This document shows positions 8,026 to 23,514 of a DNA stretch of 64,000 nucleotides, in pieces. The notes under the pieces were generated by a model. The model had not been told where the DNA came from. It made no database searches and saw only the letters and a program-made list of their open reading frames with translations. This DNA is from Brevibacillus sedimenti (lineage in GTDB: Bacteria; Bacillota; Bacilli; Brevibacillales; Brevibacillaceae). Location of the stretch: the NCBI RefSeq assembly GCF_020923495.1, contig NZ_CP064048.1, positions 2,605,001 through 2,669,000 on the forward strand, given 5' to 3'. A program made the translations under genes and the position numbers. Numbering within the stretch: position 1 is the first letter of the stretch; each line of letters begins with the position of its first letter.

Positions 8026-8684
8026 ACCGGACGGAAACCTATCGGGAACGGATTGCCCGCCGGGCGGCGCAGGAGATCGAGGACGGCATGATCATCAATC
8101 TGGGCATCGGCATTCCGACGCTGGTGGCCGACTTCATTCCGCCGGAGAAACGGGTGATGTTTCACGCGGAAAACGGCATCCTCGGTACCGGCCCCAGTCC
8201 GGCCAAGGGGGAGGAAAACCCGATGCTCTGCAACGCCGGAGGGTTTCCCGTCACGCTGGTGAAAGGTGCGTCGTTCTTTGACAGCGCCACCGCCTTTGCC
8301 ATCATCAGACGGGGGCTGTTGGACATGACCATTCTCGGCGTGCTTGAGGTAAGCCAGCGGGGCGACATCGCCAACTGGATCGTGCCGGGCAAGCGCGTTC
8401 CGGGCATGGGTGGGGCGATGGAGCTGGCGCAGAAGGCCAAACGGGTGATGGTGCTGACCACCCATCTGGACAAGAACGGCCGTTCCAAAATCGTGCGGGA
8501 ATGCTCACTGCCCCTGACGGCCAAGGCAGCCGCCAACCTGATCATCACTGACATGGCGGTGATGGAAGTTCGGGAAGACGGGCTGTATCTGCGCGAAGTG
8601 ATGGAACCATACAGCGTCGCGGACGTGATCGGCGCGACGGAGGCGGAGCTGAAGCTGGACGGCGACGTCGGCGTATTTCGCTGA
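8007..8684 (+). CDS. yodR: CoA-transferase subunit B (YodR-like)
   Basis: 225 residues. The beta subunit contributes the catalytic glutamate in the HAENGILGTG motif (about residues 52-61), which forms the covalent glutamyl-CoA thioester in this family. The NLGIGIPTLVA stretch near the N terminus is also typical. The start lies inside the end of subunit A. Together the two proteins form the heteromeric enzyme. A 118-base gap with no feature I can name separates it from the deacylase gene. Confidence 0.9.
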   Translation: MGLGEVNRTETYRERIARRAAQEIEDGMIINLGIGIPTLVADFIPPEKRVMFHAENGILGTGPSPAKGEENPMLCNAGGFPVTLVKGASFFDSATAFAIIRRGLLDMTILGVLEVSQRGDIANWIVPGKRVPGMGGAMELAQKAKRVMVLTTHLDKNGRSKIVRECSLPLTAKAAANLIITDMAVMEVREDGLYLREVMEPYSVADVIGATEAELKLDGDVGVFR

Positions 8685-8802
8685 GGCGGCGGGCGATACA
8701 AAACGGACGATACGGACAAAGCTGCCCGCCGGCTCTCGCATGGAAAACGAAAACGGACGCGAGGCAGATACCATTTGCCACGCAGGCAAAAGGAGGGTAA
8801 CG

Positions 8803-10080
8803 ATGGCAAACTGGCAGACGCTGATCCGCGAACAAATCGCCAAGGAAAAGGAGGCGGCCACGAAACTCCTGCAGGCATGGGTGCGGGAGGCAAGCGTGCA
8901 GGGCAATGAGCGCTCCATCCAGGAGAGCATCGCCAAGACGCTGCACGCGATGGGGCTGGAAGTCGATCTGTGGGTGATGGAAGGAGACGAATTGTTAAAA
9001 CATCCGTATTTCGTCTCGCCGCGGACTGTGTTCGCGGACAGCCCCAACGTGGTGGGCGTGTGGAAAGGAACGGGCGGAGGCCGCTCGATCATTCTCAACG
9101 GGCACGTGGACGTGGTGCCGGCCGGCGACCCTGCCCAGTGGTCGCACGACCCGTTCAGCGGCGAAGTGGTGGACGGTAAGCTGTACGGCCGCGGCGCAAC
9201 CGACATGAAAGGGGGAAACCTGGCCTCGCTCTTGGCGATCCAGGTGCTGCAGGCGCTGGGGGTGCGGCTCAAGGGGGATGTCATCTTTCAAAGCGTAGTG
9301 GAAGAGGAGAGCGGCGGCGCAGGCACGCTGGCAACCATCCTGCGCGGCTACAAGGCGGACGCCGCCCTTATCCCTGAGCCGACCAACATGAAGATTTTCC
9401 CCAAGCAGCAGGGCTCGATGTGGTTCCGCCTGACGGTAAAGGGACGCTCTGCCCACGGCGGCACCCGCTACGAAGGGGTGAGCGCGATCGAGAAAAGCAT
9501 GCGCGTAGTCGATGCGATTGCCCGCCTGGAAAAAGAGCGAAACGACCGGATAAACGATCCGCTGTACGCCAAGCTGCCTATTCCCATCCCGATCAATATT
9601 GGCGTGATCGAAGGCGGCAAATGGCCGTCCTCCGTGGCCGATCTGGTCAAGCTGGAGGGACGGATGGGGGTGGCGCCGGGCGAGCGGATGGAAGACGCCC
9701 GGGCGGACATGGAGGCCGCTCTGCGCCGCTTGGCCGACGAGGACCCCTGGTTTGCTGAACATCCGGTGGAACTGGAGTGGTTCGGGGCGCGCTGGGTGCC
9801 GGGGGCGGTGGCGGAGGATCACCCGCTGATGGACATCCTGCAGCGGCAGTTTGTAGCCGTGACGGGCCGGCGCGCCGTAGTGGAAGCCTCGCCGTGGGGC
9901 ACGGATGGGGGCCTTTTGACGACACTGGCCGACACGCCTGCCATCGTGGTGGGTCCGGGCGTCACCCAGGTGGCTCACTACCCCGATGAGTACATCGAAC
10001 TGGACGCCGTTTTCCAATGCGCCGAAATCTTTGCCCTGACACTGCTGGAGTGGTGCGGAACGGATGACGCGGCGAACTAG
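8803..10080 (+). CDS. yodQ: ArgE/DapE-type M20 deacylase (YodQ-like)
   Basis: 425 residues of the M20 metallopeptidase/deacylase family. Zinc ligands and catalytic residues are in GHVDVVPAGD, GRGATDMKGG and EEESGGAG, followed by a lid domain starting around RSAHGGTRYEG. The yodQ product is proposed to remove the acetyl group from an acetylated beta-lysine derivative, which matches AblB acting earlier. ATG at 8803 follows AAAGGAGGG; an upstream in-frame ATG at 8740 has no comparable site. Exact substrate is inferred. Confidence 0.87.
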   Translation: MANWQTLIREQIAKEKEAATKLLQAWVREASVQGNERSIQESIAKTLHAMGLEVDLWVMEGDELLKHPYFVSPRTVFADSPNVVGVWKGTGGGRSIILNGHVDVVPAGDPAQWSHDPFSGEVVDGKLYGRGATDMKGGNLASLLAIQVLQALGVRLKGDVIFQSVVEEESGGAGTLATILRGYKADAALIPEPTNMKIFPKQQGSMWFRLTVKGRSAHGGTRYEGVSAIEKSMRVVDAIARLEKERNDRINDPLYAKLPIPIPINIGVIEGGKWPSSVADLVKLEGRMGVAPGERMEDARADMEAALRRLADEDPWFAEHPVELEWFGARWVPGAVAEDHPLMDILQRQFVAVTGRRAVVEASPWGTDGGLLTTLADTPAIVVGPGVTQVAHYPDEYIELDAVFQCAEIFALTLLEWCGTDDAAN

Positions 10081-10303
10081 CTGGTCTGAGGCAGGCAGCG
10101 ATGCAGCGATAAAGGAGCGGCTCACATGAGTCCGCTTCCCGCCTGATGGAGCGTGCTGGTTGGGCGCACCTCTGGGCTGTACTGAAGTAATGTGCAACCT
10201 GTCACTGCATGGCCGCCGACCCGTTGGAGGAAGGCTGAAACGCGGTGGAGAAAGAGTTGGAGCAGTTGCACACCTCATCGCGAATGGAGGGAGGAAGAGG
10301 ACG

Positions 10304-11722
10304 ATGAAAAAAGCGTGCTATATCGGCGGACAGTGGGTGGAGACGGGTGCCTATGCTCCGCTGTACGCCCCGTACAGCGGCGAGGTAATCGCGGAAATCG
10401 CCCAGGCCGACAGAAATACGGTGGAACGGGCGATTAGCGCCGCGCAGGAAGCGGCACCGGTCATGCGCAGCATGCCGGCGTACCAACGGGCCGCCATTTT
10501 GGAGAAAATCTCCGGATTGCTGAACGAACGGCTGGAAGAAGCGGCGAAAATCATCGCGCAGGAAGCGGGCAAGCCGATCAAAACGGCGCGGGGCGAAGTG
10601 ATCCGCACCATCCAGACCTACAAGTTCGCTGCGGAAGAAGCCAAACGGATTTACGGCGAGACGCTGCCGCTGGACGCCGCCATTGGCGGGGAAGGGCGGC
10701 TGGCGTACACGGTGCGCGAACCATTGGGCGTCATCGGCGCCATCACGCCGTTCAACTTCCCGATGAACCTGGTTGCGCACAAGGTGGGGCCGGCCATCGC
10801 GGCAGGCAATACGGTAGTGCTGAAGCCGGCGTCGCAAACGCCGCTCTCCGCCTTTTTCCTGGCGGAGCTGGCCGAACAGGCGGGGCTGCCGGCTGGCGCG
10901 CTCAACATCGTCACCGGCAGCGGCGGCACCGTCGGCGACCTGCTGGTGACCGATCCGCGCGTCAAGGCGATCACGTTTACGGGCAGTCCGGCTGTCGGCA
11001 TCAACATCCGCAACCGCGCCGGATTGAAGCGGGTGACGCTGGAACTGGGCTCCAACTCCGCCGTGATCGTGGACCGCGACGCCAATCTGGACGACGTGAT
11101 TCCGCGCTGCATTTTTGGCGCGTTTGCCTACTCCGGTCAGGTGTGCATTTCCGTCCAACGGATTTATGTCGCTGCGGAGCTGTACGACACGTTCGTGGAA
11201 CGTTTCGTTGCGGAGACGCGCAGGCTGCGGGGAGGCGATCCGCTGTCCGAAGAGGCCGACTACTCGGCAATGATCAGCCCGAAAGAAACGGAACGGGTGC
11301 TGGAGTGGATCGAGGAGGCCAGGCAGCGGGGCGCCCGCGTCGAATGCGGCGGCGAAACGGACGGCCGCGTACTGCAGCCCACCGTCTTGACCGGTGTCCC
11401 GGCTGACGCCAAAATCTCCTGCCAGGAGGTGTTTGGACCAATCGTCCTGATCAACCCTGTCGAGTCGGTCGCCGAGGCGATTGCGCTGGTGAACGACTCC
11501 CGGTATGGCCTGCAGGCGGGCCTGTACACCAACAATCTTTCGCTTGCACTGCAGGCGGCTGACGCGCTGCATGTGGGCGGCGTGATGATCAACGACATCC
11601 CCACTTTCCGCGTCGACCACATGCCCTACGGCGGCGTCAAAGAGAGCGGCATGGGCCGCGAAGGCGTCAAGTACGCGATTGAAGAGATGACGGAGCTAAA
11701 GCTGGTTGTCGTGAAACGCTAG
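10304..11722 (+). CDS. NAD(P)-dependent aldehyde dehydrogenase
   Basis: 472 residues of the aldehyde dehydrogenase superfamily. The nucleotide-binding motif is FTGSPAVG, the general base is in LELGSNS, and the nucleophilic cysteine is in YSGQVCIS. The LELGSN variant in place of LELGGN occurs in lactaldehyde/semialdehyde-type members. As last gene of the yod-like run it could oxidise a semialdehyde formed during diamine breakdown (inference). It begins 223 bases after the deacylase; ATG at 10304 has GGAGGGAGGAAGAGG upstream. B. subtilis yod operons do not include such a gene, so this is a local addition. Confidence 0.88.
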   Translation: MKKACYIGGQWVETGAYAPLYAPYSGEVIAEIAQADRNTVERAISAAQEAAPVMRSMPAYQRAAILEKISGLLNERLEEAAKIIAQEAGKPIKTARGEVIRTIQTYKFAAEEAKRIYGETLPLDAAIGGEGRLAYTVREPLGVIGAITPFNFPMNLVAHKVGPAIAAGNTVVLKPASQTPLSAFFLAELAEQAGLPAGALNIVTGSGGTVGDLLVTDPRVKAITFTGSPAVGINIRNRAGLKRVTLELGSNSAVIVDRDANLDDVIPRCIFGAFAYSGQVCISVQRIYVAAELYDTFVERFVAETRRLRGGDPLSEEADYSAMISPKETERVLEWIEEARQRGARVECGGETDGRVLQPTVLTGVPADAKISCQEVFGPIVLINPVESVAEAIALVNDSRYGLQAGLYTNNLSLALQAADALHVGGVMINDIPTFRVDHMPYGGVKESGMGREGVKYAIEEMTELKLVVVKR

Positions 11723-11804
11723 GGATAAACAGGAGAAAGTAAGGATCAGGTCATACGGTATGGCGCTGCATCTTCGTCGAAGCGATGCATCAGCGCTGCA
11801 GAAC

Positions 11805-11847
11805 GACCCGGCTGCCCGCTGCTGGCCGCCGGGTCCATTTTTTTTTT
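11805..11847 (+). terminator. Terminator of the yod-like operon
   Basis: GACCCGGC (11805-11812) pairs with GCCGGGTC (11828-11835) and is followed by a 10-T run. A second imperfect stem lies just upstream at about 11763-11797. Confidence 0.88.
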
Positions 11848-11867
11848 GGAAAAATTGCAGGAAAGTG

Positions 11868-11897
11868 TTGCAAAATGAGAGGCAATTATGATATAGT
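11868..11897 (+). promoter_or_regulatory. Promoter of tRNA-Ser
   Basis: TTGCAA (11868-11873) and TATAGT (11892-11897) are separated by 18 bases and lie 19 bases before the tRNA. Confidence 0.6.
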
Positions 11898-11915
11898 TTA
11901 ACTTGTCCGTATCGC

Positions 11916-12004
11916 GGAGGGATACCGAAGTGGTCATAACGGGGCGGTCTTGAAAACCGTTAGGGCGCAAGCCCACGGGGGTTCGAATCCCTCTCCCTCC
12001 GCCA
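11916..12004 (+). tRNA. tRNA-Ser (anticodon UGA)
   Basis: Acceptor GGAGGGA (11916-11922) pairs with TCCCTCC (11994-12000), followed by G and an encoded CCA. The anticodon stem is 11944-11948/11956-11960 with loop CTTGAAA, giving anticodon TGA at 11951-11953. A long variable arm and the GTTCGAATCC T-loop are present, as expected for serine tRNA. It is a single, monocistronic tRNA and marks the boundary of an AT-richer region. Confidence 0.96.
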
Positions 12005-12034
12005 TATATCGAAAATCGAAAAACGTGATATGAG

Positions 12035-14302: not shown

Positions 14303-15070
14303 TTAGGTGGTAGAGGGGGAGCCGTAGGCTCCAGTCCTCATCTTCTCACGAAGTCGGTAACTATTCCCCCTAATATTGACGATGTGGGAATGGTGTAAGA
14401 GCCGATCCAGGATAGCCGTAGCAAGTATCGGATCGCCCATCAGTTCCCCCCATTCACCGAAACTCTTGTTGCTGGTCAACAGAATACTCCCTCTCTCGTA
14501 TCTTGCACTTACTACCTGGAAAAAGAGGTTAGCTGCCAAACTGTCAAACGGTAAGTAACCAATTTCGTCAATAATCAGGAGCTTTGGTCGAATATAGATG
14601 CGTAGGCGTTTATCCAGCCTGTTTTCCGTGTAAGCTTTTCGCAGATCTTCGATGAGTTGCGAGAGACTGACAAAGTAAACGGATATCCCTTGCGAGATGG
14701 CTTCTACAGCCAACGCCACCGCCAGATGACTTTTTCCTACTCCGGGAGGCCCTAAGAACAAGACATTCTCGTGTCGGGTTACAAAAGTCATCGTGGCCAG
14801 CTCTCGAATCAACCGTTCGTCAATGCTGGGTTGGAAAGCAAAATCGAACTCCTCTAGTGTTTTTCGGTAAGGCAAGTGTGCAAGTTTGGTGCGTACCTCC
14901 ATATTCCGTTTTTGACGTTCCGCTATCTCGGCATCAAGGAGCGTGTTAAGAAAGGACAGATAGGTGGGCTGTCCATGACTTGCCGCTTCCAAGTGAGCAT
15001 CCAAGAGGAGAGCTGCTTGCTGAAGCCCAAGTTCCTCGAGGCGTAGCCGTGCTTGTTCCAGTTCAATCAT
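14303..15070 (-). CDS. istB: IS21 helper ATPase IstB
   Basis: 255 residues of the AAA+ IstB family, the helper that stimulates the IstA transposase and selects target DNA. Walker A is GPPGVGKSH, Walker B is LLIIDEIGYLP. The start ATG overlaps the istA stop by 4 bases (ATGA), so the genes are translationally coupled. Full length for the family. Confidence 0.95.
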   Translation of the reverse strand: MIELEQARLRLEELGLQQAALLLDAHLEAASHGQPTYLSFLNTLLDAEIAERQKRNMEVRTKLAHLPYRKTLEEFDFAFQPSIDERLIRELATMTFVTRHENVLFLGPPGVGKSHLAVALAVEAISQGISVYFVSLSQLIEDLRKAYTENRLDKRLRIYIRPKLLIIDEIGYLPFDSLAANLFFQVVSARYERGSILLTSNKSFGEWGELMGDPILATAILDRLLHHSHIVNIRGNSYRLREKMRTGAYGSPSTT

Positions 15071-16290
15071 GCTCCCACCCCTGTTAGCTGCTCATAGACA
15101 TCCAGCGAACGTACTTCCACTTGCTGCGATGAAATCTGTCGGGCTTGCGGACGTGGATAGGCATATCCTTGAGCGGTCGAAAGACCTGCATACTGGTTTT
15201 CGCAAAAAACAGTTGTGCGGGATCGATAGACCTTTTGGTGTCGAGCAATACATGTGCCGTCGGCCCAGATTTCCACCCACCCATTCACTTCTCGAACGGT
15301 TACCTCACGTCCACTGTACCTCCATGGAACTCCATATCGTACACCATCGTAGCTAACAAATCCGTCTCGGCTGACCTGTCTTGGTTCATGCAAGTATTTT
15401 TCCCACCGTTCAGCTGAAGGGATGGGCGACAGTTTTTCCTCACGGAGTCGGTCAAAGGGACGTTCGCCGGTTGTTCCATGAATACGGCGGTTAATCCGCT
15501 CGCACCAGTGTAGGGCTTGTTGATTGAGATCCTGTAAATCAACGAAGCGTTTGCCAGGAAGAAAGTTGTTTTTTACGTATTGAACGCCTCGTTCCACTTT
15601 TCCCTTTGTTTCGGGGCGTCGAACTTTGCATACTTTTGGAACAAGCCCAATCGCTGCAGCAAAGTCGGCAAAAAGCGGATGCCAGCGAGGTTTTCGATCA
15701 TCTTCCATGCCCAGTACGACGGTTTTCATCTGGTCGGTCAGCATTACCTTTGGGATGCCCCCAAAATATTCAAAAGCATGAATCAAGCAACGAAGAAAGC
15801 TGTGAATGTCACAACGCTTAGTGAACTCTATATAGGTGGAACGAGAGTACCCCAATACCATGACAAATACCGGCACTTTTCGGACTGTACCGTCCAAATC
15901 TACGTAATCACACAGTCCCCAGTCGACCTGTGCGTATTCACCAGGTTTCGTCTCGTAACGAAGAACAGCGGGAACTTGTTTGGGAGGACGGAAGTCCTTC
16001 ACATAGTCTTTCAAGATGGTACGTCCCCCGGTATACCCCTTTTCTCGTAGAAGATCGAATAAAACCTCGCAGTTATAGATACCTTCTTGAAGACGTTCCT
16101 GCAGGAACGGTTTATACGGATCAAGCTTGGAACCACGAGATTTACGGGTTCCCTTTTCGGGGGAGAATTCACCCCGGAGATATCGGCGAACTGTATTTCG
16201 AGAATGCCCCGTTAGACGGGCAATTTCACGAATACTCTTGCCTTCTGCCCTCATGGTATGTAACGATATCACTATCCCACTCCTTAGCAT
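15067..16290 (-). CDS. istA: IS21 transposase IstA
   Basis: 407 residues. An N-terminal helix-turn-helix (SIREIARLTGHSRNTVRRYL) binds the IS ends. The DDE catalytic core shows the first Asp in QVDWG, the second in LTDQMK and the Glu in KGKVERGVQYVKN. The start ATG has GGAGGGAG upstream. Appears intact. Confidence 0.95.
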   Translation of the reverse strand: MLRSGIVISLHTMRAEGKSIREIARLTGHSRNTVRRYLRGEFSPEKGTRKSRGSKLDPYKPFLQERLQEGIYNCEVLFDLLREKGYTGGRTILKDYVKDFRPPKQVPAVLRYETKPGEYAQVDWGLCDYVDLDGTVRKVPVFVMVLGYSRSTYIEFTKRCDIHSFLRCLIHAFEYFGGIPKVMLTDQMKTVVLGMEDDRKPRWHPLFADFAAAIGLVPKVCKVRRPETKGKVERGVQYVKNNFLPGKRFVDLQDLNQQALHWCERINRRIHGTTGERPFDRLREEKLSPIPSAERWEKYLHEPRQVSRDGFVSYDGVRYGVPWRYSGREVTVREVNGWVEIWADGTCIARHQKVYRSRTTVFCENQYAGLSTAQGYAYPRPQARQISSQQVEVRSLDVYEQLTGVGA

Positions 16291-20023: not shown

Positions 20024-20101
20024 AAAGGCGTGCGTGTTTTCCCGATCCCGACGGCTTGCCGTCGCCGCCGGGAGAGCATTTAAGCATGTAGGGCACTGTC
20101 T

Positions 20102-20242
20102 TTAACCTTTCAACCCTTCCAGCCACTCGGCGTAACAGGTGTCGCAGACGAGTTCTTCGCGTTCCTGCTTGCCCTGGAAGTACGTGATCAGATGAATGCT
20201 GTCTGTTTCATGCTCGCAGTGGCAGCATTTGTAGTTTCCCAT
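20102..20242 (-). CDS. 46-residue zinc-ribbon-like protein
   Basis: An ATG frame with GGGAGGA 5 bases upstream encodes a 46-residue protein with two CxxC knuckles: CCHC at residues 6-9 and CDTC near residue 36. The spacing suggests a single zinc-binding ribbon. It lies downstream of the NamZ-deacetylase gene but behind that gene's terminator, so it may be partly independent. Function unknown. Confidence 0.7.
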   Translation of the reverse strand: MGNYKCCHCEHETDSIHLITYFQGKQEREELVCDTCYAEWLEGLKG

Positions 20243-20319
20243 GATCTTCCTCCCGTTATTCCGTGTTGCTGCGGACGCCGGCAGGAGTTGTCCGGCTCCC
20301 CGCTTATTGTGCCCCCAAA

Positions 20320-20348
20320 CAAAAAAACAACTCCCTCGAAAGGGAGCT
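20320..20348 (-). terminator. Terminator of the NamZ-deacetylase fusion gene
   Basis: On the minus strand AGCTCCCT, loop TTCG and AGGGAGTT are followed by GTTTTTTTG. Confidence 0.85.
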
Positions 20349-20366
20349 GGTGATGGTTGGCTGCCG

Positions 20367-22475
20367 TTACTTCACGTTGGCGACTGTCGGTTTGTCGGGG
20401 CGAATAACGTCAAATCGGTAGCCCTGCTGCTTCAAATATTGAATGACTGCCGGCAGCGATTGGGCCGTTGCCGCTTTTGTCGAGGCGTCATGCATCAGCA
20501 CGACGATTTCCCGCTGGTGCTTTACCTGGCTTTTCACATTGGCCAGCGCGCTCTCCGGCGTGTAGTGATTGCTGCTGGCATCGCCGTTGGAGATGTTCCA
20601 GTCGATGAAGACATAGCCGCGTTTGGCCGCTTCCGCCTTGATGTCCTGCATGACCGTGTGGCTGTTGTTGTACACGTTTGGATTTTGGTACTTTTTGCTC
20701 ACTGTGTTGGTGCTGCCGCCCGGGTAGCGGAACACGGTCGGCTTGACGCCCGTGGCCTTCTCGATCAGCTGGTTGCCTTTTTCCAGATCGGCAAAGAACG
20801 ACGCGATGTCCTTGTAGATCAGACGGTAATCGTGCGAATAGGTGTGACCGCCGACCACGTGTCCTTCGGCGATGGCCCGTTTCAGTACAGCTTCACGGCC
20901 GGGAACATTTTTGCCAACTACGAAAAAGGTGGCTTTCACCTGATGCTGTTTCAGGATGTCCAGGATCTGGCTCGTAACCGGCGAGGGGCCATCGTCAAAG
21001 GTGAGATAGGCCACTTTGTCCTGCGGAGGTTTGCTCTCGGTCGGCTGTGTGCCCGGCACTGCTGTCGAAGGAGCGGGCGGGTTGGTCGTTGGCGTCTGTT
21101 TCCCAGTTTGTTCAGCACCGGCTGGAGCCGGTGTGACGGCTGCCGGTTTTTCTGTGGGCGGCACAGGTTTTTTCGACGGAGCCTGCGGCTGATTTACCGG
21201 AGCCTGCGGCTGATTCGCCGGAGCTTGCTGCCCTTGCGCCGGTTTGCTGACCGGGGGCTGCTGCGGCTGCGCGTCCGAAGCGGGCTTGCTGCGGATCGGT
21301 TCGGCCGGTTCGTACGGTTGATCGCCGTAGATGAGAAACGCTTTTCGCTGTTCGCGGAATGCCGCCAGTTTGTCAGCGTACGTGCTTTCGATCGCCTGCG
21401 GAGACAATCCCTGCGCCAGGTGCTGACTCACGCTGCTCGTCAGGCCGCTTTTCGGCACCAGATCATGATTCAACTGGCTGGCGTATGCAAGCGTGTAGAT
21501 GCCTGTCTTCGCCGGATTGAACCGGTACGGGTCGATGATGTGCAGGCGCACCCCGCCGCGCGTTTCCTTGTCTTGCGGCAGGAACATCACCCCGGGAAGC
21601 AGGGCGCCGTTCAGCAGATCCGCATACGCATCGGAGTCAATGCCTTCTCCGCCGATCCAGGTAAAGTTGTCGGCTGGCGTGATTCCCGTTCCTTCGCCTT
21701 GGCCGGTTGCCATGTAGCCGAAAACGGCGGCCAGGTCGGGAGTCTCGGGGGAACTGGGAATCCAGGGCAGTCCGGTATCCTGGTACAGCATTTGACGGGT
21801 GTACCCCTGCATGGGAATGACGGTCAGATCGGCGTTGATGCTGCGGTTGAAAAACCGGGCCAATTCACCGATGGTCATGCCGTGCGCCAGCGGCAGGGGA
21901 GCGCCTTCGATGAACGAACGGTGCGGTGCCTCCAGCAGTGGACCGTCCACGATGGTGCCGCCGACCGGGTTTGGCCGGTCCAGCACGATGAGCGGTTTGC
22001 CAAATTGTTTGGCAGCAGTCATGCAGGCCGTAAGTGTAGAGATGTAGGGAGAGGTCGCGGAACCGATGTCCTGCAGGTCGACGACCAGCACGTCAATGTT
22101 GGACAGCATCTCCTTTGTGGGGATGGGGGTGGAGCCGTACAGGCTGTACACCGGAATACTGTAGACAGGGTGAAAGTACGTGCTGGTTTGTTGCCCCGCA
22201 GGCGTTTTTCCATCCAGTCCTTGTTCGGGGGCGTACAGCGCGGTCAGCGTGACGGTACGGTCGCGCCGCAGCATGTCGATCGTGCTGATTCCCTGGCTGT
22301 TGACACCGGTTTGATTGGTGACCAGGCCCACCTTTTTGCCTTGAATGACGTGGTGGAATTGATTAAAGAGCACGTCGCTTCCCAATTGAATGACAGCAGT
22401 GTTGGCGGAACTGCCGCCTGGAGGAATAATGGTGAGAATGAGTGCGAGGATGAGTAAAGGGAGCAGTTTTTTCAT
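20367..22475 (-). CDS. Secreted NamZ-type exo-muramidase fused to a polysaccharide deacetylase
   Basis: 702 residues. A signal peptide (about 1-24) is followed by a DUF1343/NamZ domain (about 35-385) with LVTNQTGV, VVDLQDIGSA and VLDRPNPVGG. Then comes a Pro/Gln-rich spacer (about 390-490), and a C-terminal CE4 NodB domain (about 495-700) with TFDDGPS, HTYSH, RYPGG, DWNISNGD and VVLMHD. NamZ cleaves terminal MurNAc from peptidoglycan fragments, while CE4 enzymes remove N-acetyl groups. The fusion suggests coupled wall turnover outside the membrane (inference). B. subtilis YbbC/NamZ lacks the deacetylase. Start ATG has AAAGAGG upstream. Confidence 0.9.
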   Translation of the reverse strand: MKKLLPLLILALILTIIPPGGSSANTAVIQLGSDVLFNQFHHVIQGKKVGLVTNQTGVNSQGISTIDMLRRDRTVTLTALYAPEQGLDGKTPAGQQTSTYFHPVYSIPVYSLYGSTPIPTKEMLSNIDVLVVDLQDIGSATSPYISTLTACMTAAKQFGKPLIVLDRPNPVGGTIVDGPLLEAPHRSFIEGAPLPLAHGMTIGELARFFNRSINADLTVIPMQGYTRQMLYQDTGLPWIPSSPETPDLAAVFGYMATGQGEGTGITPADNFTWIGGEGIDSDAYADLLNGALLPGVMFLPQDKETRGGVRLHIIDPYRFNPAKTGIYTLAYASQLNHDLVPKSGLTSSVSQHLAQGLSPQAIESTYADKLAAFREQRKAFLIYGDQPYEPAEPIRSKPASDAQPQQPPVSKPAQGQQAPANQPQAPVNQPQAPSKKPVPPTEKPAAVTPAPAGAEQTGKQTPTTNPPAPSTAVPGTQPTESKPPQDKVAYLTFDDGPSPVTSQILDILKQHQVKATFFVVGKNVPGREAVLKRAIAEGHVVGGHTYSHDYRLIYKDIASFFADLEKGNQLIEKATGVKPTVFRYPGGSTNTVSKKYQNPNVYNNSHTVMQDIKAEAAKRGYVFIDWNISNGDASSNHYTPESALANVKSQVKHQREIVVLMHDASTKAATAQSLPAVIQYLKQQGYRFDVIRPDKPTVANVK

Positions 22476-22848
22476 GATTTTCGGCCTCTTTCTTGATGAA
22501 CTGACATTGTTGTACGTCTATTGTATCGGTATCTGCTAACGCAATGGTTGCAATCCAGTAACAATCCCGAATTTGAGGACAATTACGAAGAAAAAACGTG
22601 GAAATGCCTGCGGTTCTCTAGCCTGCTGAGTCACCTGCCGTCCGTACAGATGCTTTCATTTATTTTTGACGCCGCATTTATCGAAACGTTGCGGTCTTTT
22701 CCTGCAAAATTTTGCAAATGGACAGGCAGCCGTGTCGAAACGAGTCTAAGCGGAGCGGCAGGCGGCTGAAAGGCTTGGCTGCGTGTGCCCGGTTGTCCAG
22801 CAGCGGTGTGATAAAAAGGGAAGATAAGGAACGCTCCATCAGAGTAAG
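22476..22848. other. Intergenic region with no supported gene
   Basis: This stretch separates divergent genes and must hold both promoters. Minus-strand TACAAT near 22530 may be the -10 of the NamZ fusion gene, but no convincing -35 is present. Short frames here lack ribosome-binding sites. Confidence 0.4.
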
Positions 22849-22893: not shown

Positions 22894-23514
22894 GTGAAGC
22901 GAGTGGGAGTGCTGTGCGCGGCCCTATGGTTGGCCGTGGGAATCGCCGGCTGTACGCCAAACAAGCAGCAGGGGACGGAAGACTACACGGGCCAGCAGGC
23001 GCGTTTTGACCCGTACGGCATCAACCTGAAAAGTGACAACCTCGGACGGGACAAGGGGCCGGCAGCGATGATCTACCAAAAGAACATCCACCGCCGCGAG
23101 CCTCATCTGCTCGCCCTGCTGGAACGCCACGCAGAGCGAATTCCCGGCGTGCAGGACATCAAGGTGCTGGCGTTCAAGGACAATCTGCTGATTGGCGTGC
23201 TGACGGCCGATACGCCCAAGCCGGACCAGGTCAACCCGAATCCGACGATCCCCCATGAGCCTGGCTCGCCGAATCGGATCGATAACGGCCACACTGACCA
23301 CATCCAGATGAAAGTGGTAAAAGCGATGCGCAGCAGGCTGCAGGCGGAGACCCGTTTCAACATTATGTACGTCTCCACCAACAAGGCCATCTACCAGCGA
23401 ATAGCCGACCTGCACGAGCGGATTTTGCGCGGAGAAACGGTAAGGGATGAGGAGTTCCAGACACTGTTGAACGACATCGGTTATACGTCAATAGGGTTTG
23501 AACTCGTCCATTGA
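22894..23514 (+). CDS. YhcN/YlaJ-family sporulation lipoprotein
   Basis: 206 residues. The signal peptide ends in lipobox GIAGC, so it is a membrane lipoprotein. The remainder contains the YhcN/YlaJ domain, recognisable from VQDIKVLAFKDNLLIGVLT and VVKAMRSRLQAETRFNIMYVST. The family is associated with the forespore membrane/spore cortex and germination. GTG at 22894 follows AAGGAGGTG by 8 bases. Confidence 0.85.
   Translation: MKRVGVLCAALWLAVGIAGCTPNKQQGTEDYTGQQARFDPYGINLKSDNLGRDKGPAAMIYQKNIHRREPHLLALLERHAERIPGVQDIKVLAFKDNLLIGVLTADTPKPDQVNPNPTIPHEPGSPNRIDNGHTDHIQMKVVKAMRSRLQAETRFNIMYVSTNKAIYQRIADLHERILRGETVRDEEFQTLLNDIGYTSIGFELVH

Follow-up and report, generated by a model that had tools for sequence, protein, structure and literature searches.

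What does a bacterium gain by joining a NamZ-type exo-muramidase domain to a CE4 deacetylase domain in one protein? The question is raised by a gene of Brevibacillus sedimenti located in the window, the 64,000-nt stretch of DNA analysed here (contig NZ_CP064048.1, positions 2,605,001 to 2,669,000), with the following parts:

20367..22475, minus strand: NamZ-CE4 fusion gene, 702 aa, one ATG-to-stop frame with no internal stop.
22401..22475, minus strand: signal-peptide-like N-terminus, approximately residues 1-25, without a visible lipobox (translation read by eye).
21327..22331, minus strand: NamZ (GH171-type) domain of the near clade, residues 49-383, delimited by Pfam and alignment, with H85Q, R140A, Y142S, T143P and G190E relative to stand-alone NamZ.
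21036..21314, minus strand: Pro/Gln-rich linker seen in the translation, approximately residues 388-480, near-neutral (dN/dS 0.93 against the B. thermoruber copy).
20391..21035, minus strand: CE4 deacetylase domain, approximately residues 481-695, assigned by Pfam, a PDB match and the intact motifs TFDDG, HTYSH, RYPGGS, DWN and LMHD.

The original prediction had described a single fused frame with a Pro/Gln-rich spacer, and both were confirmed, the linker lying between the NamZ_C and Polysacc_deac_1 matches. Pfam NamZ_N matched residues 49-248 (E = 2.9e-71, profile positions 1-202 of 203, 239.5 bits against a cut-off of 26.9), NamZ_C residues 253-383 (E = 1.2e-15, positions 2-152 of 152, 59.1 bits against 25) and Polysacc_deac_1 residues 482-596 (E = 8.3e-33, positions 2-115 of 124, 113.4 bits against 23.1). 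The closest named relative found for the protein is the Brevibacillus thermoruber copy, with 84% identity over residues 1-702.

CE4 enzymes share five defined conserved motifs. All of them, in the form TFDDG, H(S/T)xxH, R(F/Y)PGGS, DWN and LxHD, were found in 37 of 38 fusions if TLDDG of L062 is accepted as a variant of the first. The sole exception was L043, a shortened second copy in its genome, which has no last motif. The nearest solved CE4 structure is 5jmu, a peptidoglycan GlcNAc deacetylase (E = 1.6e-37), while the best NCBIfam model, NF045822, scored 127 against a cut-off of 400, so that no equivalog name applies. Since two CE4-family proteins of B. anthracis lack deacetylase activity, as reported in an excerpt of PMC4505593, the motifs alone are no proof of activity, and the CE4 half is best described as a putative deacetylase whose substrate would be wall glycan.

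A tree of 71 NamZ domains separated 20 canonical from 51 fusion-type members with a split support of 100. Within the fusion-type clade (the near clade), fused and stand-alone states are intermixed, with two to four changes between them, on a topology with a number of poorly supported forks and with long branches that join each other. Canonical NamZ has SEGRGTT and FxPTFSKHxG segments that are absent from the B. sedimenti NamZ half and, as far as aligned (four of the eight sequences compared), from its clade. The B. sedimenti genome also encodes a canonical NamZ elsewhere (L091, 6891-8189), followed after 13 nt by a PF00144 serine hydrolase gene (8203-9915) and after a further 2 nt by a GH3 gene (9918-12020), which we take to be the gene set of the recycling operon in B. 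subtilis (namZ-amiE-nagZ). This compact operon, spanning L091 6891-12020, is likely the peptidoglycan-recycling set of the organism. The fusion gene lacks AmiE-like and NagZ-like partners; it lies among other neighbours, with a promoter-like element of its own and a terminator-like site. Because its NamZ domain belongs to a separate clade and a namZ-amiE-nagZ-like operon with a canonical NamZ is present elsewhere in the genome, the fusion is probably not the recycling NamZ enzyme.

The NamZ half of the fusion departs from its stand-alone relatives in the signature loops. PEHG and QDxGxRxYT, whose residues are presumably catalytic, showed no change in any of the 53 stand-alone NamZ examined except for one P83C, and the two solved NamZ-family chains in the alignment (4k05 and 4jja) carry PEHG and QD(I/V)GxR. 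The B. sedimenti fusion reads PEQG and QDIGSATSP at these places, and the signature is thus not retained. Each of the following columns was kept in 53/53 stand-alone proteins; among fusions E84 was kept in 35/38, H85 in 21/38, Y113 in 16/38, R140 in 35/38, Y142 in 25/38, T143 in 27/38 and G190 in 37/38. The claim that both catalytic domains are complete therefore stood for the full Pfam extents and for the five CE4 motifs, and failed for H85, R140, Y142, T143 and G190 of the NamZ half. E84, which we take to correspond to Glu92 of B. subtilis NamZ and to be the most likely catalytic residue, is retained together with D133, D136, D166, H198 and E204. Nine duplicate loci were skipped in the alignments (L001, L002, L003, L021, L025, L052, L053, L054 and L080), and L009 was additionally dropped at one analysis step.

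Counting a NamZ column as fixed when it was unchanged in 32 or more of 33 stand-alone proteins gave 71 fixed columns; the fusions broke 0 to 18 of them, with four or fewer broken in 27/38. The B. sedimenti fusion breaks seven (H85Q, R140A, Y142S, T143P, V180L, G190E and L259Q), and the fusions L027 and L028 keep all 71. Twenty further stand-alone proteins, which had no part in the choice of columns, broke 0 to 5, none of them in PEHG or QDxGxRxYT; over all 71 columns the difference between fusions and these 20 proteins was not significant (Mann-Whitney p = 0.059). On a tree built without the ten motif columns, these columns changed, by parsimony, 33 times on fused branches (branch length 11.57), never on stand-alone near-clade branches (9.31) and once on canonical branches (8.44), and the 61 other conserved columns changed 101, 39 and 13 times, respectively. 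As the ten columns were chosen after viewing the alignment, the resulting p value of 3.5e-9 against stand-alone near-clade branches is optimistic, and the 20 added proteins constitute the independent check. The difference between fused and stand-alone proteins is thus located in the motif columns. As judged from these alignments, the NamZ signature is compatible with fusion, yet the only near-clade lineages to lose it are fused ones.

Loss of the signature does not amount to decay of the domain. All 38 fusions agree at most positions of TNQTG, LDRPNP and HGMTxGE, and comparison with the B. thermoruber copy gave a dN/dS (Nei-Gojobori) of 0.27 for NamZ and 0.16 for CE4; against other relatives, dS was saturated or nearly so. 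The low NamZ ratio and the invariant motif residues imply that the NamZ half is constrained rather than simply decaying. The B. thermoruber-type copy (L026) shares Y142S and T143P and still has H85, R140 and G190, which indicates that the latter three were lost recently in B. sedimenti. A single-sequence AlphaFold2 model reached a mean pLDDT of 37.4, too low to place the lost residues in a pocket. Among 26 Brevibacillus genomes, T143 of the fusion was replaced in 5/5 genomes with a canonical NamZ and in 3/21 without it (Fisher p = 0.0009), and Y142 in 5/5 and 4/21 (p = 0.002), while no significant link was found for H85 or R140 in the same genomes (p = 0.32 and 0.35). The association of canonical NamZ with T143 and Y142 loss is at most suggestive, the five genomes representing about two lineages.

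Taken together, we favour the reading, at a probability of roughly 0.5, that the B. sedimenti protein is a CE4 deacetylase carrying a NamZ-derived, wall-binding and maybe weakly active domain. It would be a secreted, peptidoglycan-active enzyme whose N-terminal NamZ-family domain comes from a clade separate from the recycling NamZ. Its CE4 half would remove N-acetyl groups from the wall glycan of growing cells, and its NamZ half may bind the non-reducing, MurNAc-bearing glycan end and hold the deacetylase there. With the PEHG and QDxGxRxYT loops broken and the remaining fold under purifying selection, the NamZ half is predicted to have little or no exo-muramidase activity. Several points weigh against this reading: E84 is kept, L027 and L028 show that fusion alone does not abolish the signature, and at position 85 one branch, ancestral to nine rows, is reconstructed with a change from Y to H, a possible reversion that would make Y a working alternative to H. 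Expression would be set by a WalR/PhoP-type response regulator at the gene's own promoter. Somewhat more tentatively, the NamZ catalytic loops may have been lost repeatedly after fusion, so that a former exo-muramidase now reads glycan ends and directs a deacetylase under response-regulator control to the non-reducing ends of wall glycan. If this is true, a glycosidase is becoming a carbohydrate-binding module within one genus in which intact, intermediate and broken versions coexist. Intact and broken NamZ halves beside an intact CE4 half make such evolution from enzyme to binding module directly testable, and the label "NamZ exo-muramidase" may be wrong for such fusion proteins. Wall deacetylation is a known lever on autolysins and lysozyme; a gene found in every Brevibacillus genome examined would tie it to glycan-end recognition.

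The occurrence of NamZ together with CE4 bears on the alternative that both halves are active. The original prediction had called for a survey of such fusions in Bacillales, and the survey made here found a frame with both domains in 26/26 Brevibacillus genomes, including eight that were first listed as pieces and proved on reading to be single frames, and in 34/39 genomes of the order. Of the remaining five, G097 and G185 have NamZ of the same clade only as a stand-alone protein, G066 has a related CE4 without NamZ, and G215 and G248 have neither. The CE4 protein of G066 (L079, 4892-6193, minus strand) has 433 aa, is of the same CE4 type and lacks NamZ, its first 200 residues being without a Pfam match. 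One Brevibacillus genome (G001) has two fusion copies, L043 and L051, the former shortened in CE4. In a class sample of 398 genomes, fusions beyond the family occurred in f27 (G058, G170 and G191), all three with the domain order NamZ-CuAO_N1-CE4. In G160, also of f27, the frame is CuAO_N1-NamZ and includes no CE4; stand-alone NamZ of the fusion's clade is present in ten f12 genomes. A phylum sample of 398 genomes added 37 genomes with a full-length NamZ of the same clade, in frames of mostly 491-638 aa (one of 444), none of which was fused to CE4 as judged by match range. Fragments in G774 and G542 were excluded from this count, and 20 of the 37 genomes were retrieved and read. Cu_amine_oxidN1 was confirmed by Pfam at the C-terminus of two of these 20 stand-alone NamZ (L113 and L109), and similar C-termini were seen by eye in the others. 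In four f114 loci (L109-L112) a single gene separates a NamZ gene from a CE4 gene; this intervening gene is DUF445 in the two of four loci examined with Pfam, and phmmer confirmed the CE4 gene in 4/4, Pfam in 1/4. In the other 16 loci, one weak CE4 match near NamZ was found (L121). The f27 chains and the f114 gene proximity thus support the idea that CE4 and NamZ of this clade are functionally linked, the neighbour evidence coming from one family.

This link is what could be expected of a bifunctional enzyme whose two halves act in either order on the same chain ends, NamZ removing terminal MurNAc and CE4 deacetylating. We regard this as a possible but rather doubtful account of the B. sedimenti protein. 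It agrees with the full extent of the domains, with retention of E84, D133, D136, D166, H198 and E204, with purifying selection on the NamZ half, with the complete set of 71 fixed columns in L027 and L028, and with the association of NamZ and CE4 as near neighbours in four f114 genomes and through CuAO_N1 in three f27 genomes. However, five residues that are invariant among stand-alone NamZ (H85, R140, Y142, T143 and G190) are replaced in B. sedimenti, a canonical NamZ operon is present elsewhere in the genome, and the near-clade members aligned do not have the SEGRGTT and FxPTFSKH segments of canonical NamZ. Of the proposed sequential processing by the joined domains, the functional linkage is thus borne out by f27 and f114, but the processing itself is doubtful here, where the NamZ loops are broken and the canonical NamZ operon is separate. 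In the full-signature fusions L027 and L028, judged by their motifs, sequential processing by two active enzymes is plausible.

Less probable again is an enzyme of changed specificity, with the NamZ half acting, for example, on de-N-acetylated or otherwise modified MurNAc ends made by CE4. The replacements are indeed partly patterned (H85 to Y in 12/38 and Y113 to S in 12/38 fusions), and most other conserved residues are kept. But E84A, E84D, E84R, D136H and T143P also occur and are hard to fit to one conserved new activity shared by the fusions.

The surroundings of the gene bear on when the putative deacetylase is made:

22547..22563, minus strand: TGTTAC-N5-TGCAAC direct repeat, a WalR/PhoP-type box with one mismatch to TGTWAH-N5-TGTWAH.
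22520..22525, minus strand: TACAAT, a candidate -10 element 21 nt after the box, found in 27/27 Brevibacillus upstream regions.
20328..20349, minus strand: terminator-like hairpin with a T run, 17 nt past the stop codon; the region has 6 such sites against 4.1 +/- 2.0 expected, so the site is weak alone.
22894..23514, plus strand: divergent gene for a YhcN/YlaJ-type lipoprotein, beside the fusion in most Brevibacillus loci.

The convergent neighbour is an AMP-binding (acyl-CoA synthetase-type) gene, and both flanks are kept in most sufficiently long Brevibacillus loci. Of the 27 upstream regions compared, which come from 26 genomes, 18 have an exact TGTTAC-N5-TG[ACT]AAC 21 nt before TACAAT; by eye, eight of the other nine contain near variants and L043 is different. 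The B. sedimenti repeat retains the half-sites and differs in the spacer. Exact copies of TGTTAC-N5-TGYAAC number three in the genome, compared with 0 for the reversed control. A sigma-70 scan found two weak sites, no more than in shuffles. PhoP boxes read alike on the opposite strand. The WalR consensus is TGTWAH-N5-TGTWAH, and pgdA belongs to the genes that rise most strongly when C. difficile overproduces WalR, both according to an excerpt of PMC9210968; an excerpt of PMC4478028 reports that WalR of B. subtilis represses pdaC, a CE4 peptidoglycan deacetylase gene. Judging by the conserved repeat and -10 element, the fusion is probably transcribed from its own promoter under an OmpR-family response regulator of WalR/PhoP type. 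The other two repeat copies of the genome (L129 1501-1517 and L131 1501-1517) lie 57 and 150 nt upstream of signal-like frames matching DUF2808.

PdaA/PdaB-type CE4 enzymes act in sporulation, and a role in the cortex or germ-cell wall would accord with the divergent YhcN/YlaJ-type sporulation lipoprotein gene and with weak matches of PdaA/PdaB-type NCBIfam models. These spore CE4 models, however, score far below their cut-offs (99.5 vs 237.4 and 89.3 vs 298), and what is conserved upstream is a repeat of response-regulator type with TACAAT as the -10, which makes a sporulation enzyme quite unlikely. A sequence join error, named by the original prediction as what would overturn it even though no frame anomaly was visible, or a locally decaying gene, for which nothing but the motif losses speaks, is ruled out, because the genome is one contig of 3.93 Mb, the same fused frame recurs in all 26 Brevibacillus genomes, and dN/dS is below 0.3 in both domains.

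A mobile or viral origin of the fusion was likewise considered and set aside: a profile scan of viral_contigs gave no relative, and in phage and plasmid records the NamZ-like and CE4-like matches occurred separately, each spanning less than 80% of the query. Among the plasmid records, NamZ-like (DUF1343) matches were seen in halophilic archaea, e.g. Haladaptatus (records H20-H23 and H25-H27), which to our knowledge have no murein wall.

Each half of the protein comes from a known family. B. subtilis NamZ/YbbC (GH171, PF07075 + PF20732) resembles the fusion in having both Pfam domains near full length and TNQTG, LDRPNP and HGMTxGE-type motifs; the fusion, in contrast, falls into a separate clade with approximately 40% identity to canonical NamZ, has PEHG and QDxGxRxYT broken and is joined to CE4. 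PgdA-like CE4 proteins (PDB 5jmu and 5nc9) share the five motifs, and 5jmu also an R(F/Y)PGGS.NTVSK stretch, but unlike the fusion they bear no NamZ domain. PdaC of B. subtilis, in which we know of no NamZ domain, gave a weaker PDB match to the CE4 half (6h8l, E = 6e-18) than other CE4 chains. It is nevertheless a CE4 deacetylase under WalR, according to the excerpt of PMC4478028, and a WalR-type box lies upstream of the fusion. Fusion of a NamZ domain to another wall-active domain is already in print as the DDPept-DUF1343 architecture, with PF00144 as partner in one protein of the survey, whereas no CE4 partner was seen in the excerpt of that survey (PMC2605481). NamZ proteins with Cu_amine_oxidN1 from other Bacillota belong to the fusion's NamZ clade (51-60% identity), but have PEHG and QDxGxRxYT intact in 20/20 and PF07833, not CE4, as C-terminal partner in the two of 20 run through Pfam. 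The original prediction knew of no described example of the NamZ-CE4 combination, and we likewise found no description of it in the open-licence literature searched.

Two further observations concern the window around the fusion. At 14303-16290 on the minus strand, adjacent frames of 255 and 407 aa resemble, by eye, IstB and IstA of an IS21-type element; a search with the IstB-like frame against the B. thermoruber locus L003, where the neighbouring genes are found, gave no match. Downstream of the fusion, at approximately 20100-20243 on the minus strand, a short frame encodes what looks by eye like a small Cys-rich, zinc-ribbon-like protein.
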